DNA of 64,000 nucleotides. It comes from Sycon ciliatum (taxonomy: Eukaryota > Porifera > Calcarea > Leucosolenida > Sycettidae). The position numbers and the translations under genes were made by a program. Position 1 is the stretch's first letter. Every line of letters begins with the position of its first letter. Location of the stretch: positions 19,600,407-19,664,406 of the forward strand of contig NC_088646.1 of the NCBI RefSeq assembly GCF_964019385.1, read 5' to 3'. The notes beneath the pieces are model-generated. The model saw nothing but the letters and a program-made list of their open reading frames with translations. It was not told the origin of the DNA and did not search any database. Positions 9,101-63,850 of this stretch are shown here, one piece after another.

Positions 9101-11301
9101 CAGCCAGAGGCGTGGCTCTGCGACACGTACCCGGATTGCGTCAACCCGCTGACAAACATTGCCGTCGATGAAACTGATGCGTTGTGCACGCCTCAACCAG
9201 GTAGGTGGTGGCATGAGATTCTTTTGGTGGTCTGCAGCCTCTGTCGCTCGTATTTCGTGTGGGTTGCATCATGTCTCTGGGATTTCGAACGTGTATCTTA
9301 TTGGCCTTGCCTTGCTCTCCTTGTTTTTGTGGTTTGTTTCAGCAACGTCCAGACGTGAAATCCAGACCACGACGACAAGAAGACCGGTAACCAGCACGGG
9401 ACCGGTGACAACCGTCGCGACTACTCGTACGTGTCTTGAAATGTTTTGAAAGTGTTGTGTTTCCCATGAAGTAAATTTCACCTCCACCACATGCGCTCTC
9501 CGGCCGACGTCATCACACCAGTAATAGGACTCCCTCCAAGTTGTAGATACTGACCAATAAAACTACTTCGTTGATAAACAGGCCGAAAGCCGCTGCTTAC
9601 CCGTTCAGTACAATGTTATGTGACCCATGGACCTAGAGCCACGCTCTATTGAGATTCCCGCTTTTGGATGCTGCTTTCTGGTCGGATTGGAGGGTGTTGC
9701 GAGTGCTTGCTTGGTACTGCCACTGCCCCCGATGCTGTGAGGGTGGAGCTGCTGTAAGGGCACAGACCCCCCGTAGAACACTGCTCAGTGCTGAGAATTG
9801 TGTGGCCGTGTGTTGTTGTTTGACGTGTTTGTGCACAGGACCCACTGGTCTGTACCATCCACCCACGGCGTCTGTGAAGAAGAACCGGCAAGCCTGTAAG
9901 TATGCGTGTGAATGAGTGCAGTCTAGCCGAAAGGAATGGCAGTGGGTAGTTAAGGCCATGAATGTTTGTATGTGTGTGTGTGGGGGGGGGGGGGGGGGGG
10001 GCATCAACGCACTGTCAGTGTGGTTATAAATGCAGGCTGTGTGCAGGAACTGAGCTGCATTCGTGAACAGAAGTGGTACCTTTGCATAATACTTATGGTG
10101 TTTACCATAGTTGCGCATCTTACCATAATAATACTTGTCTCGCATTTTGTGTGTGTGTGTGTGTCCTTTAGCTGACAACTCGCTGCTGATTGCGGTAGCG
10201 TGCGGGGCCTTGGGTGTCGTCTTTGTCGCCCTTCTCCTTCTTCTCCTTTACATTGCTCGCGGGAAACAGTAAGTTCTCATTGTGTATGGAATAAACATGT
10301 AACTGTGAGTGTAGATAGATTCACCCTGCATTACGCTGTAGTCTAGTGCATTTATCATGAGTTCTCACGTCACTAACCCAAACAATCGCATGTGTACTGA
10401 AGGCAATTTTTGGGTTCAAAAACAAACAAACATAGTCCGTTTGCCAAACGTTTCCATTTTGGCTGCATTCTGGTTGGCTCGACGATCTCAGTTGTTCAAT
10501 GTTGGCCGGTTCAGCCGTACTATTGCTAGCAACGCATGGGCAACAGTCGGTGCACATCAAGTAGATTTAGAATGTTGTATGTGTGTGCGTGTGCCAACTT
10601 GTGTTTATCTCTCTAGGCGGCAAAATGGCACCAATCAAACCACTGGAAAGAGCCCAGCGAAGGGCGCGAAGATCTTGATTGACTGTGAGGAAGGAGAGCC
10701 TGTCAAGAAACCACCGAGCAAGTTCGTGGAGCCTTCAGGCAGCCATCAGCCAGTAGCACATGCGACTGTGAAAGTCGTCCAGCCAGTGAACATGGTCACT
10801 TCCGTTTCGACGACAAGTCAAGGCTCTCCGAAAAATGTAAGAGCGGTTCGAACACTATATATACGGTAAAGTTTTCCTGCTACCCGCCTCAGTGGTGTAG
10901 GTCGACTTGTTCATGGCATGTCCGCAATCGGCTACTAGTACTGTAACTCTCGACAATTCCGCCACAAAATCGGGCCTTGTCGCTATGGACTGGCACCGTT
11001 TATATGAAATCTAGAGAGCCGGGAACCACTTCAAATGCACCCCGGACTGCGCATCTGGGTACTGGGAGCGTGCATGCTTTGGCACTGTGTATCGATTTGG
11101 CTTATCGCTGGCCATAATGCATAGTCTTCTACTGGCCCGTAGCTCAGTGCTGCCATACTTTGTCTCGCGGCGGATATTCGAATGCGAATGTTTTGTTTTG
11201 GTGTTTTGGTTCCGGCTTTCTGATGGAAGTATTGTTGTGCATTCTTATTCTTCTTGCGTGTCTGTGCGTAGATACACCATCAATGTGTATCCAGTGTGTA
11301 G
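6030..11301 (+). CDS. LDLa-domain single-pass membrane protein (8 exons)
   Basis: Join of 6030-6147, 6424-6546, 8796-9200, 9343-9426, 9839-9895, 10172-10268, 10617-10836 and 11272-11301; every junction has GT-AG and matching phase, giving 1134 nt (377 residues). In order: a signal peptide of about 38 residues; one canonical LDL-receptor class A repeat with six Cys and the calcium cage [11 protein letters not shown]; a Thr/Ala/Val-rich stretch likely to be O-glycosylated; a second, divergent six-Cys LDLa-like module lacking the acidic cage; Thr-rich and basic linkers; a Leu/Val transmembrane helix; and a cytosolic tail of about 84 residues. LDLa modules bind lipoprotein or other ligands with calcium. 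Ligand and orthologue are unknown. More exons could hide in the 2.2-kb third intron. The last exon is the weakest call: without that splice the frame runs on to a TAA at 10867-10869. Confidence 0.8.
6424..6546 (+). CDS. LDLa gene exon 2: LDL-receptor class A module
   Basis: A 123-bp phase 1-1 exon encoding one complete LDLa repeat: Cys-x-Phe spacing, [16 protein letters not shown], then [11 protein letters not shown]. Symmetric 1-1 exons are the classical form for shuffled extracellular modules. Confidence 0.9.
8796..9200 (+). CDS. LDLa gene exon 3: Thr/Ala-rich linker and second LDLa-like module
   Basis: Acceptor TTATCTCCAG and donor GTAGGT; phase 1-1. The first 90 residues are Thr/Ala/Ser/Val-rich. 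The remainder (RCGN... YC... KC... WLCD... DC... LC) has six cysteines spaced like an LDLa repeat but lacks the SDE calcium motif. Confidence 0.8.
9343..9426 (+). CDS. LDLa gene exon 4: Thr-rich linker
   Basis: An 84-bp phase 1-1 exon between acceptor TTTGTTTCAG and donor GTACGT. It encodes a Thr-rich stretch ([17 protein letters not shown]), probably an O-glycosylated stalk. Confidence 0.7.
9839..9895 (+). CDS. LDLa gene exon 5: short juxtamembrane linker
   Basis: A 57-bp phase 1-1 exon, acceptor TTTGTGCACAG and donor GTAAGT, encoding a Pro- and Lys-containing stretch ([18 protein letters not shown]). Confidence 0.65.
10172..10268 (+). CDS. LDLa gene exon 6: transmembrane helix
   Basis: After acceptor TGTCCTTTAG it encodes SDNSLL followed by about 24 hydrophobic residues ([20 protein letters not shown]) and the stop-transfer YIARGK. 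It ends in phase 2 at donor GTAAGT. Confidence 0.8.
10617..10836 (+). CDS. LDLa gene exon 7: cytosolic tail
   Basis: Encodes a Lys/Pro/Ser-rich hydrophilic tail of about 73 residues (for example [16 protein letters not shown]). It ends in phase 0 before a possible donor GTAAGA. If that donor is not used, the frame stops at 10867-10869 after RAVRTLYIR. Confidence 0.7.
11272..11301 (+). CDS. LDLa gene possible exon 8: C-terminal 9 residues
   Basis: After acceptor TGTGCGTAG, phase 0 reading gives IHHQCVSSV and a stop. The C-terminus S-S-V would fit a class I PDZ ligand. This terminal exon rests only on splice-site and phase agreement. Confidence 0.35.
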   Translation: MHHQCVSSV

Positions 11302-14490: not shown

Positions 14491-14721
14491 GAAGGCTACA
14501 TTTGGAAGTTCCCTTGAGCGGTCGGCTTAGGCAGGTTTCACTGTAATTTGGATAACTGAAACCTGGCTGAACTGAGAAGTTGCGACTTCGGCGGTATTAG
14601 TGATGAAGTTGGTTGATCCAACGAGGAACACACGCTTCCTGCCAAACTTGACACTTGACTGACTCACACCTGCCATCCGGAGCACACCAGGAGCACGTCA
14701 CACCTTCCACTCAGCAAACCT

Positions 14722-14767
14722 GCTCAATACACAGTGTTTCGGGGAATTCACCCCTCATCAGATAAGC
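14722..14767 (-). ncRNA. Hammerhead ribozyme, type I (PLE-1 left arm)
   Basis: On the minus strand: CTGATGA, stem II GGGG/CCCC with loop TGAATT, then GAAA, a 3-bp stem III (ACA/TGT) and a GTA cleavage triplet. The stem I 3' strand TTGAGC faces GCTTAT instead of GCTCAA, leaving one mismatch next to the core and one G-U pair. The core is intact; activity may be reduced. Confidence 0.75.
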
Positions 14768-15043
14768 TTGAGTAGGCTGAGGAAGATTGTGCCTGAAAAG
14801 CACCACTTATATAGTGCTCTCAAGGCCAAACTATCACCAGGGATACACATTTACAGAGACACTTCGTTTCCAGCACGACAACACCTCATGAGGCCCCAGG
14901 TAGCAGTGTGAGTCAGAGTCGCTCATGGAGTTGTGCTAAACAGACGTTGAGAGCCAGTAGCTATTCACAACGCTGTCACCGCCAACAAGTAGTCGCATGT
15001 CCACGTGAGGGACAACAATACAAACTTAGAAGTTTCGACTTAA

Positions 15044-15457
15044 TAGGGAGGTTCCGGAGTACGATTTTTCGTGCCAAAATCCGTGGAGGCGCTACGGATT
15101 TTTCATACGTCGTTTTCGAGCAGTGAAAAGTTCCGGGGTACGGAACTTATGTGTTTGCCGTCATTGCCTAGGTTACGATCGCAAACACGTCACATTCCCG
15201 CGCTATGCCTTTTTATTTTGAAAATTGGTACCGAAATCAAAACTTGCCGCGGAAAATCGATGTTTCTCGTACCAAATTTGTACGCGAAAAATCTTTCTGC
15301 ACTCGATGACGCAAAATCTCCATACGAAACATGGTTCGCATGAAAGGCAGTCCACACGGATTCTCCGTGCCGAAAAATCGTATGGAGCATGCCTGGAAAA
15401 AATCCGTAGCGCCCATACGGATTTTGGCACGGAAAATCGTACCCCGGAACCTCTCTA
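15044..15457. mobile_element. MITE with GAGGTTCCGG termini, copy 1
   Basis: Terminal inverted repeats of more than 50 bp start TAG-G/A-GAGGTTCCGG and continue through GTGCCAAAATCCGT. It is inserted in PLE-1 and has no coding capacity. A diverged relative lies at 51110-51405. Confidence 0.75.
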
Positions 15458-15479
15458 GTACGCACGGAGGACTACTCGA

Positions 15480-15525
15480 GCTCAGCTGATGAGGGGTGAA
15501 TTCCCCAAGACACAGTGTATTGAGC
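15480..15525 (+). ncRNA. Degenerate hammerhead ribozyme (PLE-1 right arm)
   Basis: Same layout as the intact copies: GCTCAG, CTGATGA, GGGG/CCCC stem II, TTGAGC. The conserved GAAA after stem II has become AAGA. Two core changes predict loss of cleavage. Confidence 0.6.
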
Positions 15526-15917
15526 AGGAGTCGCCCTTTCTTGCAGGTTTGCCGAGTGGAAGGTGCGAAGTGCTCCGGATGGCAGTCGTGAGTCAGTCAA
15601 GTGGCAGGAAGCGTGTGTTCCTCGTTGGAACAACCAACTTGAAACCTGGCAGGTCATTTTTAAATGACCAGCCGGGTTTCATTGCTCAGTGCATTTTTGA
15701 CGAGGTTGTCATAATCTTTTTCGTACCAACATCCGGAAGTACAGCAGCAAAACTGGCTTAGTCACACTCTAGTTCCAGCCATATACCGTATTTCCCCGCA
15801 TATAAAGCCATGGCGTTATATCCGAATATAAGGCCACCCTCACTTATAAAGCCATGGCGTTATAAGTGAACAAAATTCAATGTGGAGGAAGTTGCATCTG
15901 GCGTTAAAGGTGAGTTC

Positions 15918-21651: not shown

Positions 21652-60442
<38,791 letters not shown>

Positions 60443-63334: not shown

Positions 63335-63766
63335 TACTTGACTTGTACGAAGTAGTGGTTGCGACTTCGGCGATGATTTGTAAGAAAGGGTTTGCTCCCC
63401 ACACCGGAGCTCGCGCTATTCCGCCGACTTTACTTGACACTTGACTGACTCACGACTGCCATCCAGAGCACACGAGAAGTCCATCGAACCTTCGACTCGG
63501 CAAACCTGCAAGAAAGCACCACTCCCTGCTCAATACACAGTGTTGTGTTGTGTTGTTTACTCAAGCTCAACTGATGAGGGGTGAATTCCCCGAAACACTG
63601 TGTATTGAGCAGGGAGTGGTGCTTTCTTGCAGGTTTGCCGAGTCGAAGGTTCGATGGACTTCTCGTGTGCTCTGGATGGCAGTCGTGAGGCAGTCAAGTG
63701 TCAAGTAAAGTTGGCGGAATAGCGCGAGCTCCGGTGTGGGGAGCAAACCCTTTCTTACTTGACTTG
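63335..63766 (-). mobile_element. Penelope-like element PLE-3 with intact hammerhead
   Basis: Target duplication TACTTGACTTG (63335-63345, 63756-63766), extendable by TA. A one-sided extension of about 35 bp (GTGGTTGCGACTTCGGCGAT) precedes inverted arms of roughly 150-180 bp starting GTAAGAAAGGGTTTGCTCCC. Arms meet near 63540-63560 at a TGTTG repeat. The right arm holds a complete hammerhead; the left arm holds only half of one. 410 bp, no ORF for RT. Confidence 0.8.
63565..63610 (+). ncRNA. Hammerhead ribozyme, type I, intact (PLE-3)
   Basis: GCTCAA; CTGATGA; GGGG, loop TGAATT, CCCC; GAAA; short stem III ACA, loop CTG, TGT; cleavage triplet GTA ending at 63604; then TTGAGC, which pairs fully with GCTCAA. 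It matches the PLE-2 ribozyme except for one loop base. Confidence 0.92.
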
Positions 63767-63850
63767 TATGTCGCACTAATACTATTCCCGACTATTGTAG
63801 TATACACTATCTCCCTTTACTCGTATAATCGTATTCATATTCGTATTCAC

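Follow-up and report, generated by a model that had tools for sequence, protein, structure and literature searches.

A hammerhead ribozyme of Sycon ciliatum in an animal retrozyme variant with a strong Penelope-type insertion signature

Metazoan non-LTR retrozymes have been described (PMC7229834) as short non-coding tandem units of 150-450 bp that carry a type I hammerhead, have no LTR and a G+C content below 50%, show target duplications longer than 4 bp and coexist with Penelope-like elements. Penelope elements have been named as candidate movers of these repeats, the moving enzyme itself being treated as an open guess in both accounts (PMC7229834, PMC7761336), and according to PMC7761336 the repeats hold no motif that tells the mobilising element. 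Plant LTR retrozymes (PMC4918200, as told in PMC7229834) are also non-coding hammerhead retroelements, with circular RNA in the plant, and differ in having a type III hammerhead, LTRs, 4-bp duplications and a suggested Gypsy machinery. Elements of the Penelope/Poseidon clade (PMC11167929, PMC3846280) are described with a hammerhead, a tandem and inverted arrangement, a 30-40 bp tail, A+T-rich targets and a start codon at the hammerhead. For PAc, a Penelope element of the anole, reverse transcription in vitro is reported to start at two adjacent sites with the tail as the interval between them, both DNA strands are cut and extended, no difference in start was seen between the strands, and the ORF begins at the hammerhead (PMC11167929). 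PMC3846280 gives a 31-bp tail as optional at one inverted pseudo-LTR; for Penelope in Adineta vaga it inclines to self-priming but does not dismiss other routes.

The element studied here, from the calcareous sponge Sycon ciliatum, agrees with metazoan retrozymes in its short non-coding tandem unit with a type I hammerhead, in the lack of LTRs, in target duplications of more than 4 bp when present and in coexisting Penelope-like elements. It differs from them in unit length (476-478 bp) and in G+C content (51-53%; 53.3% in subfamily A and 50.8% in subfamily B), a trait which we take as descriptive. Frequent head-to-head palindromes with Penelope-type tails belong to the Sycon element only, the main text of PMC7229834 never using the word 'inverted'. 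All the characters listed above for the Penelope/Poseidon clade are shared, but unlike Penelope-like elements the Sycon unit has no reverse transcriptase (RT) or endonuclease, and its hammerhead has a 3-bp stem III and an extended stem I as against the minimal form described for Penelope. By its anatomy, as read from the sequence, the element is a metazoan retrozyme, and it is a variant of animal retrozymes with a strong Penelope-type insertion signature. In the open-access literature no paper was found that joins a hammerhead ribozyme with Porifera and, as judged by titles and the beginnings of abstracts, none on retrozyme tails; priority is not established.

The window, that is the whole stretch of 64,000 nucleotides analysed, had been given an initial annotation which described an intact type I hammerhead with a conserved core, three perfectly paired stems and a short stem III in a foldback of about 410 bp. 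Direct reading of 63565-63610 on the plus strand bears this out base for base: the 5' strand of stem I (GCTCAA, 63565-63570), the core CTGATGA (63571-63577), stem II with its loop (GGGG/TGAATT/CCCC, 63578-63591), the core GAAA (63592-63595), stem III (ACA/CTG/TGT, 63595-63603), the A at 63604, 3' of which cleavage is predicted, and the 3' strand of stem I (TTGAGC, 63605-63610) are all present, stem I being the open one. Beyond an AA/AGG internal loop stem I can go on as UACUC/GAGUG, which gives an extended type I hammerhead at 63558-63618 (plus strand; from the sequence, RF00163 and fold prediction) that holds both this internal loop and a 6-nt loop II. In a covariance-model search, which had been suggested as a check, Rfam RF00163 (Hammerhead_1) aligns with 63565-63610 at 20.5 bits (E 0.0036 in a 71-nt stretch), but this lies below the gathering score of 34. 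The match was missing from a gathering-score scan of the whole window and from a 1.5-kb scan at E<=5, and the second intact hammerhead of the window (24855-24918) had no RF00163 match when 201 nt were scanned at E<=10. As the score falls below gathering, the scans were silent and the second intact copy went unmatched, the support from Rfam is weak. MIR6143 and the other Rfam matches of the 1.5-kb scan reflect the long hairpin only and were dismissed. A chance motif was ruled out, as a strict hammerhead descriptor found two matches in the window and none in 60 first-order Markov windows, and the 33-nt hammerhead core has 3,227 exact occurrences (1,646 + 1,581) in the 538-Mb genome while the reversed pattern has none. 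Judged by these sequence matches, the hammerhead at 63565-63610 is real and, as a ribozyme, ordinary; it is one among thousands of retroelement copies and no single feature.

The hammerhead lies in an insert at 63345-63758 with a 13-bp target duplication TACTTGACTTGTA (63335-63347, repeated exactly at 63756-63768), and its 414 bp and inverted arms of 165 nt agree with the annotated foldback. When mapped to the 478-bp unit of the family, the insert opens, at its left end only, with a tail (63345-63379, minus strand, unit ~189 to 155 antisense) that belongs to the long class of ends. This is followed by the left palindrome arm (63380-63544, minus strand, unit 154 back to 468 antisense), which pairs with the right arm (63594-63758) with 2 mismatches. 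A 13-nt filler GTGTTGTGTTGTT (63545-63557, plus strand) outside both mapped arms marks the palindrome centre, and the right end is tailless, unit 1-154 (63605-63758, plus strand) stopping at the short site. The right part of the palindrome carries unit 432-478 and 1-154 only, and the TATA region is absent.

The unit of subfamily A is 478 bp long, numbered from the cleavage site, and occurs in head-to-tail arrays (30 loci mapped); that of subfamily B is 476 bp, and the family as a whole is arranged in head-to-tail arrays and head-to-head palindromes. The unit is laid out as TATA box, hammerhead, body and terminal stem-loop and is non-coding, with the TATA-type box TATATAAG at unit 393-400. One A and one B unit compared differ at 2 positions between the TATA box and the cleavage site, and gave no convincing alignment over unit 103-165. 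A 207-nt query against the same genome returned at least 42 matches with 40 of 206 candidates scored, and 40 of the matches, its own copy included, have 95-100% identity over 194-207 bases. Among 86 copies there are 36 distinct hammerhead sequences, and 79 of the 86 are intact by our own rule, a count biased by the fetching of loci with ribozyme-containing queries; the copies are too alike for covariation to be used as proof of the fold.

The coding capacity of the unit bears on the proposal that it is no independent non-autonomous family but belongs, as pseudo-LTR, to an autonomous Penelope family that has a long hammerhead and has escaped notice. An ATG in the hammerhead core opens 44 (A) or 80 (B) codons, comparable to the PAc ORF as described in PMC11167929, but the A frame stops after its 44 codons and 5 of 7 codons differing between A and B are non-synonymous, on which grounds a protein-coding A unit was rejected. 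Moreover, none of the mapped loci showed a long frame attached to the unit, and open frames reach at most 241 aa at the 150 places scored among 9,068 first-look candidates. The single Penelope-type ORF (RT + GIY-YIG) is absent from the unit in a tandem of four units, in which the longest stop-free run is 95 aa (A) or 118 aa (B). We consider the pseudo-LTR proposal quite unlikely and treat the unit as an independent non-coding family.

The ends of the mapped elements fall into two classes, a short one at unit 147-164 (A) or 140-150 (B) and a long one at 184-197 (A) or 174-186 (B), with class limits that were set after the data were seen. Among 26 A and 19 B distinct mapped loci, the first tally paired a short with a long end in every palindrome whose two ends could be classed (13 in A, 16 in B), with no short/short and no long/long case, and three further A palindromes whose missing sides were fetched after the rule was noted all fit it. 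The rule of one end of each kind thus holds for 32 of 32 fully classed palindromes. Palindromes with one end in neither class (L012, L024, L053) and the one-sided loci L004, L006, L020, L021, L022, L023, L027, L028, L059 and L066 stand outside the 32, and L008, L014, L015, L016, L062 and L070 were left out as duplicates, both here and in the comparison of unit pairs. The tail, measured as long minus short end, has a median of 34.5 nt in A and 34 nt in B (range 27-41 nt), and thus the 30-40 bp tail at one inverted end that characterises Penelope-like elements is found in all the classed palindromes. Twenty-five chosen target duplications of 10-16 bp, hand-picked from automatic repeats of at least 10 bp, have 81% A+T as compared with 51% for the window; the simple repeat at L064 was kept among them, and the simple-repeat loci L010, L013 to L015 and L021, the duplicate L062 and loci with a shorter repeat or none were excluded. 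Several palindromes (L011, L067 and L068, among others) have no clear 10-bp duplication. Long inverted arms together with target duplications would also suit a DNA transposon of foldback or MITE type with an accidental hammerhead, but its terminal inverted repeats would here be asymmetric, the reason for which it was rejected, and in addition the centres vary, the units are tandem and the duplications vary in length, which leaves this origin highly improbable.

Penelope-like elements were searched for in the same genome with the Pfam GIY-YIG model, which gave at least 13 matches with 150 of 944 candidates scored. Locus L045 holds a 749-aa frame in which GIY-YIG exceeds the Pfam cut-off and RVT_1 falls short of it, and in the 807-aa frame of L046 GIY-YIG exceeds it as well; a comparison of the L046 protein with solved structures gave no match at E<=1. 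The best named relative of a Penelope-type protein of this genome is a Sycon ciliatum entry, and among the four entries that carry an organism name three are Sycon ciliatum and one is Ranitomeya imitator. A loose motif detected hammerhead-like cores in 7 of 8 fetched GIY-YIG stretches (L044-L050), which by resemblance and on the strength of the papers appear to be minimal Penelope hammerheads; a second such core in L048 looks like chance. In our own reading the Penelope-type palindromes at L044-L047 each have one tailed and one tailless end with the target repeated, L045 and L046 with long open frames and L044 and L047 decayed. Cleavage site and short end lie 145-154 nt apart in the retrozyme and, by hand count, ~82 nt apart in L045. 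The A tail is alike with those of L045 and L049 at 12 of 13 terminal bases (p 0.002-0.003), with lower agreement for L046 (p 0.018), L047 (0.50) and L044 (0.84), and the B tail gave p 0.21-0.84 against all five Penelope-type tails, all values being uncorrected for ten comparisons; homology of tail sequence between retrozyme and Penelope is weak.

The tailed and tailless ends point to the Penelope machinery as the mover, with one cDNA primed per side of the cut, since the one-tail rule holds in 32 of 32 palindromes and the same pattern recurs in L044-L047. The tie to Penelope-like elements and animal retrozymes that had been drawn initially is upheld. We regard the hammerhead as probably the processing ribozyme of a non-autonomous, non-coding retrozyme of metazoan type that Penelope-like elements of its genome mobilise. 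Our trust in this explanation is tempered by the decayed state of two of the four Penelope palindromes and by a fold that stays unfavourable when the left arm is removed. A tail at fixed sites, common to the retrozyme and the Penelope copies of its genome, is the kind of mark described as missing in PMC7761336. A B unit at L045:8614-9035 was rejected as a partner of the Penelope element, as it lies ~400 bp away beside tRNA-like repeats; by eye these repeats (L045:8527-8619 and 9239-9331) flank the retrozyme unit and are possibly a SINE. At L044:4741-4806 a 66-bp piece of retrozyme (unit 92-157, 97%) lies next to a Penelope-type copy and stops close to the short site. Locus L051 (C291), a short contig with long frames whose GIY-YIG match reads like UvrC, looks bacterial, perhaps a symbiont or contaminant.

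In the proposed cycle the TATATAAG promoter would start RNA just upstream of the hammerhead, the transcripts would cut themselves at the unit 478/1 junction, and a part of the monomers would close into circles. A Penelope RT/GIY-YIG protein, presumed to be the enzyme, would cut A+T-rich DNA with a stagger of ~12 nt, and at the observed end positions, two sites ~35 nt apart in the terminal stem-loop, cDNA would be primed, one per DNA side. The cDNAs may then run a variable distance, sometimes more than one lap of one monomer, before their two 3' ends are joined; the resulting structure is the one observed, a head-to-head palindrome tailed at one end only, and the order of events is conjectural. 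The copy at 63345-63758 would be a short product of such a cycle, without promoter and probably dead. More fully, and only tentatively, we suggest that such retrozymes parasitise Penelope-like elements, an RT dimer priming one cDNA on each side of the cut and using each of the two start sites once, on ribozyme-made and often circular RNA, with the cDNAs joined head to head. The rule of one end of each kind is not predicted by the PAc work, as that account (PMC11167929) gives no strand difference in RT start, and it bears on how Penelope palindromes form, a question which PMC3846280 leaves open.

The palindromes could instead have been made by self-priming, in which a hairpin formed by the first cDNA, or by an antisense RNA, is extended on its own sequence, so that the ends are not two initiations. 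The preference of PMC3846280, with the alternatives open there, lends this some weight, as do the repetition of the arm-end GTGTT by the filler of the window element and the private variants that the two arms of one element share above the between-element level (A 4.45 vs 0.42, B 1.89 vs 0.31 per kb). However, two cDNAs made on one RNA, or on RNAs from one locus, would be expected to share variants just as readily. A fold-back copy that ran on to the 5' end of the first cDNA should leave two tailed ends, where all 32 classed palindromes have one of each, an asymmetry that self-priming could hardly yield unless copying always halted precisely at the short site. Self-priming thus seems unlikely, and two separate initiations remain our preferred reading.

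Tandem units of one array were set against each other wherever a pair offered 400 or more comparable positions. Subfamily A gave 13 such pairs, of which 4, drawn from 4 of 8 arrays, show no difference over 478 positions, as against 0 identical among 332 between-element pairs; the four identical pairs share 2-9 variants missing from the family majority. Such identity agrees with a single monomer, such as a circle, having been copied again and again. The remaining four arrays (L019, L023, L029, L030) are heterogeneous with 10-17 differences. Subfamily B gives no single-template test, as it has no same-array pairs of at least 400 positions and some between-element pairs (3 of 21) are identical. 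Arrays whose units differ, L023 for example with 10-16 differences per 476-478 positions, would suit an origin without circular RNA, either through unequal exchange once the element had inserted or from linear multimers of the transcript, and in two of the identical-unit arrays the inverted arm is less alike (L002 1/190 and 3/64; L025 2-3/203). In the other two, however, the inverted arm is near-identical to the units (L005 1/446; L009 0/268 and 1/310), and exchange does not explain these; we judge this origin of the arrays somewhat unlikely. At L072:307-2001, ~20 bp to the right of where the L005 element ends and with an AAT repeat in between, a second retrozyme element starts. Thousands of copies, many of them near-identical, make the genome a good place to test the questions of mover and palindrome.

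The initial annotation had further expected the copy at 63345-63758 to self-cleave when transcribed on the plus strand, which the models make doubtful. In pair-probability folds, which take no account of tertiary contacts, the whole palindrome transcript (63348-63758) has a predicted mean of 0.00 for stem I, 0.89 for stem II and 0.00 for stem III, the RNA 63545-63758 without the left arm has 0.00 for all three, and only the isolated 63558-63618 favours the ribozyme fold (0.89, 0.99 and 0.08). For an intact A unit, RNA 418-478 plus 1-20 or 1-60 is predicted to favour stems I and II, and with 1-154 the fold is not favoured (stems I/II/III 0.22, 0.34, 0.02). Stem I has a predicted 0.24 in the linear A dimer, and circular folds do not favour the ribozyme (A 0.24/0.99/0.02, B 0.11/0.13/0.11). 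Since the promoter region is missing and the ribozyme fold is not favoured in context, the copy at 63345-63758 is probably inactive and efficient cleavage is not expected.

The window holds further copies of the family, all mapped on the minus strand. The second, of subfamily B, is a palindrome at 24691-25359 with its tail at the 24691 end, its short end at 25359 and the duplication ATCGTTATAGAG at 24680-24691 and 25358-25369; its intact hammerhead matches the descriptor at 24855-24918 (minus strand), with a TATATAAG box at 24948-24955 (minus strand) ~30 nt upstream. The third is an older palindromic copy with approximate limits at 14575-15640, whose hammerhead at 14713-14776 (minus strand) has kept the core, has one stem I mismatch adjoining it and has lost outer stem I, and whose other arm has a hammerhead at 15471-15534 (plus strand) with a damaged core in which AAGA replaces GAAA. 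It is split at ~15041-15460 by an unrelated inverted-repeat insert, which is MITE-like with 63-nt arms, 89% complementary. A tail-only insertion of 36 nt at 46078-46113 (mapped overlap unit 192-147) is flanked by 11-bp copies of AAGAAATACTG at 46067-46077 and 46114-46124, and looks as if two cDNAs had been joined almost at once. By eye, open frames of 1418 and 1488 codons at 29794-34050 and 53051-57517 resemble gag-pol of Gypsy type, and stretches resembling MSH2 exons were noticed on the minus strand at 46307-47126 and 23089-23484, so that the retrozyme copies may sit within or close to a large mismatch-repair gene.
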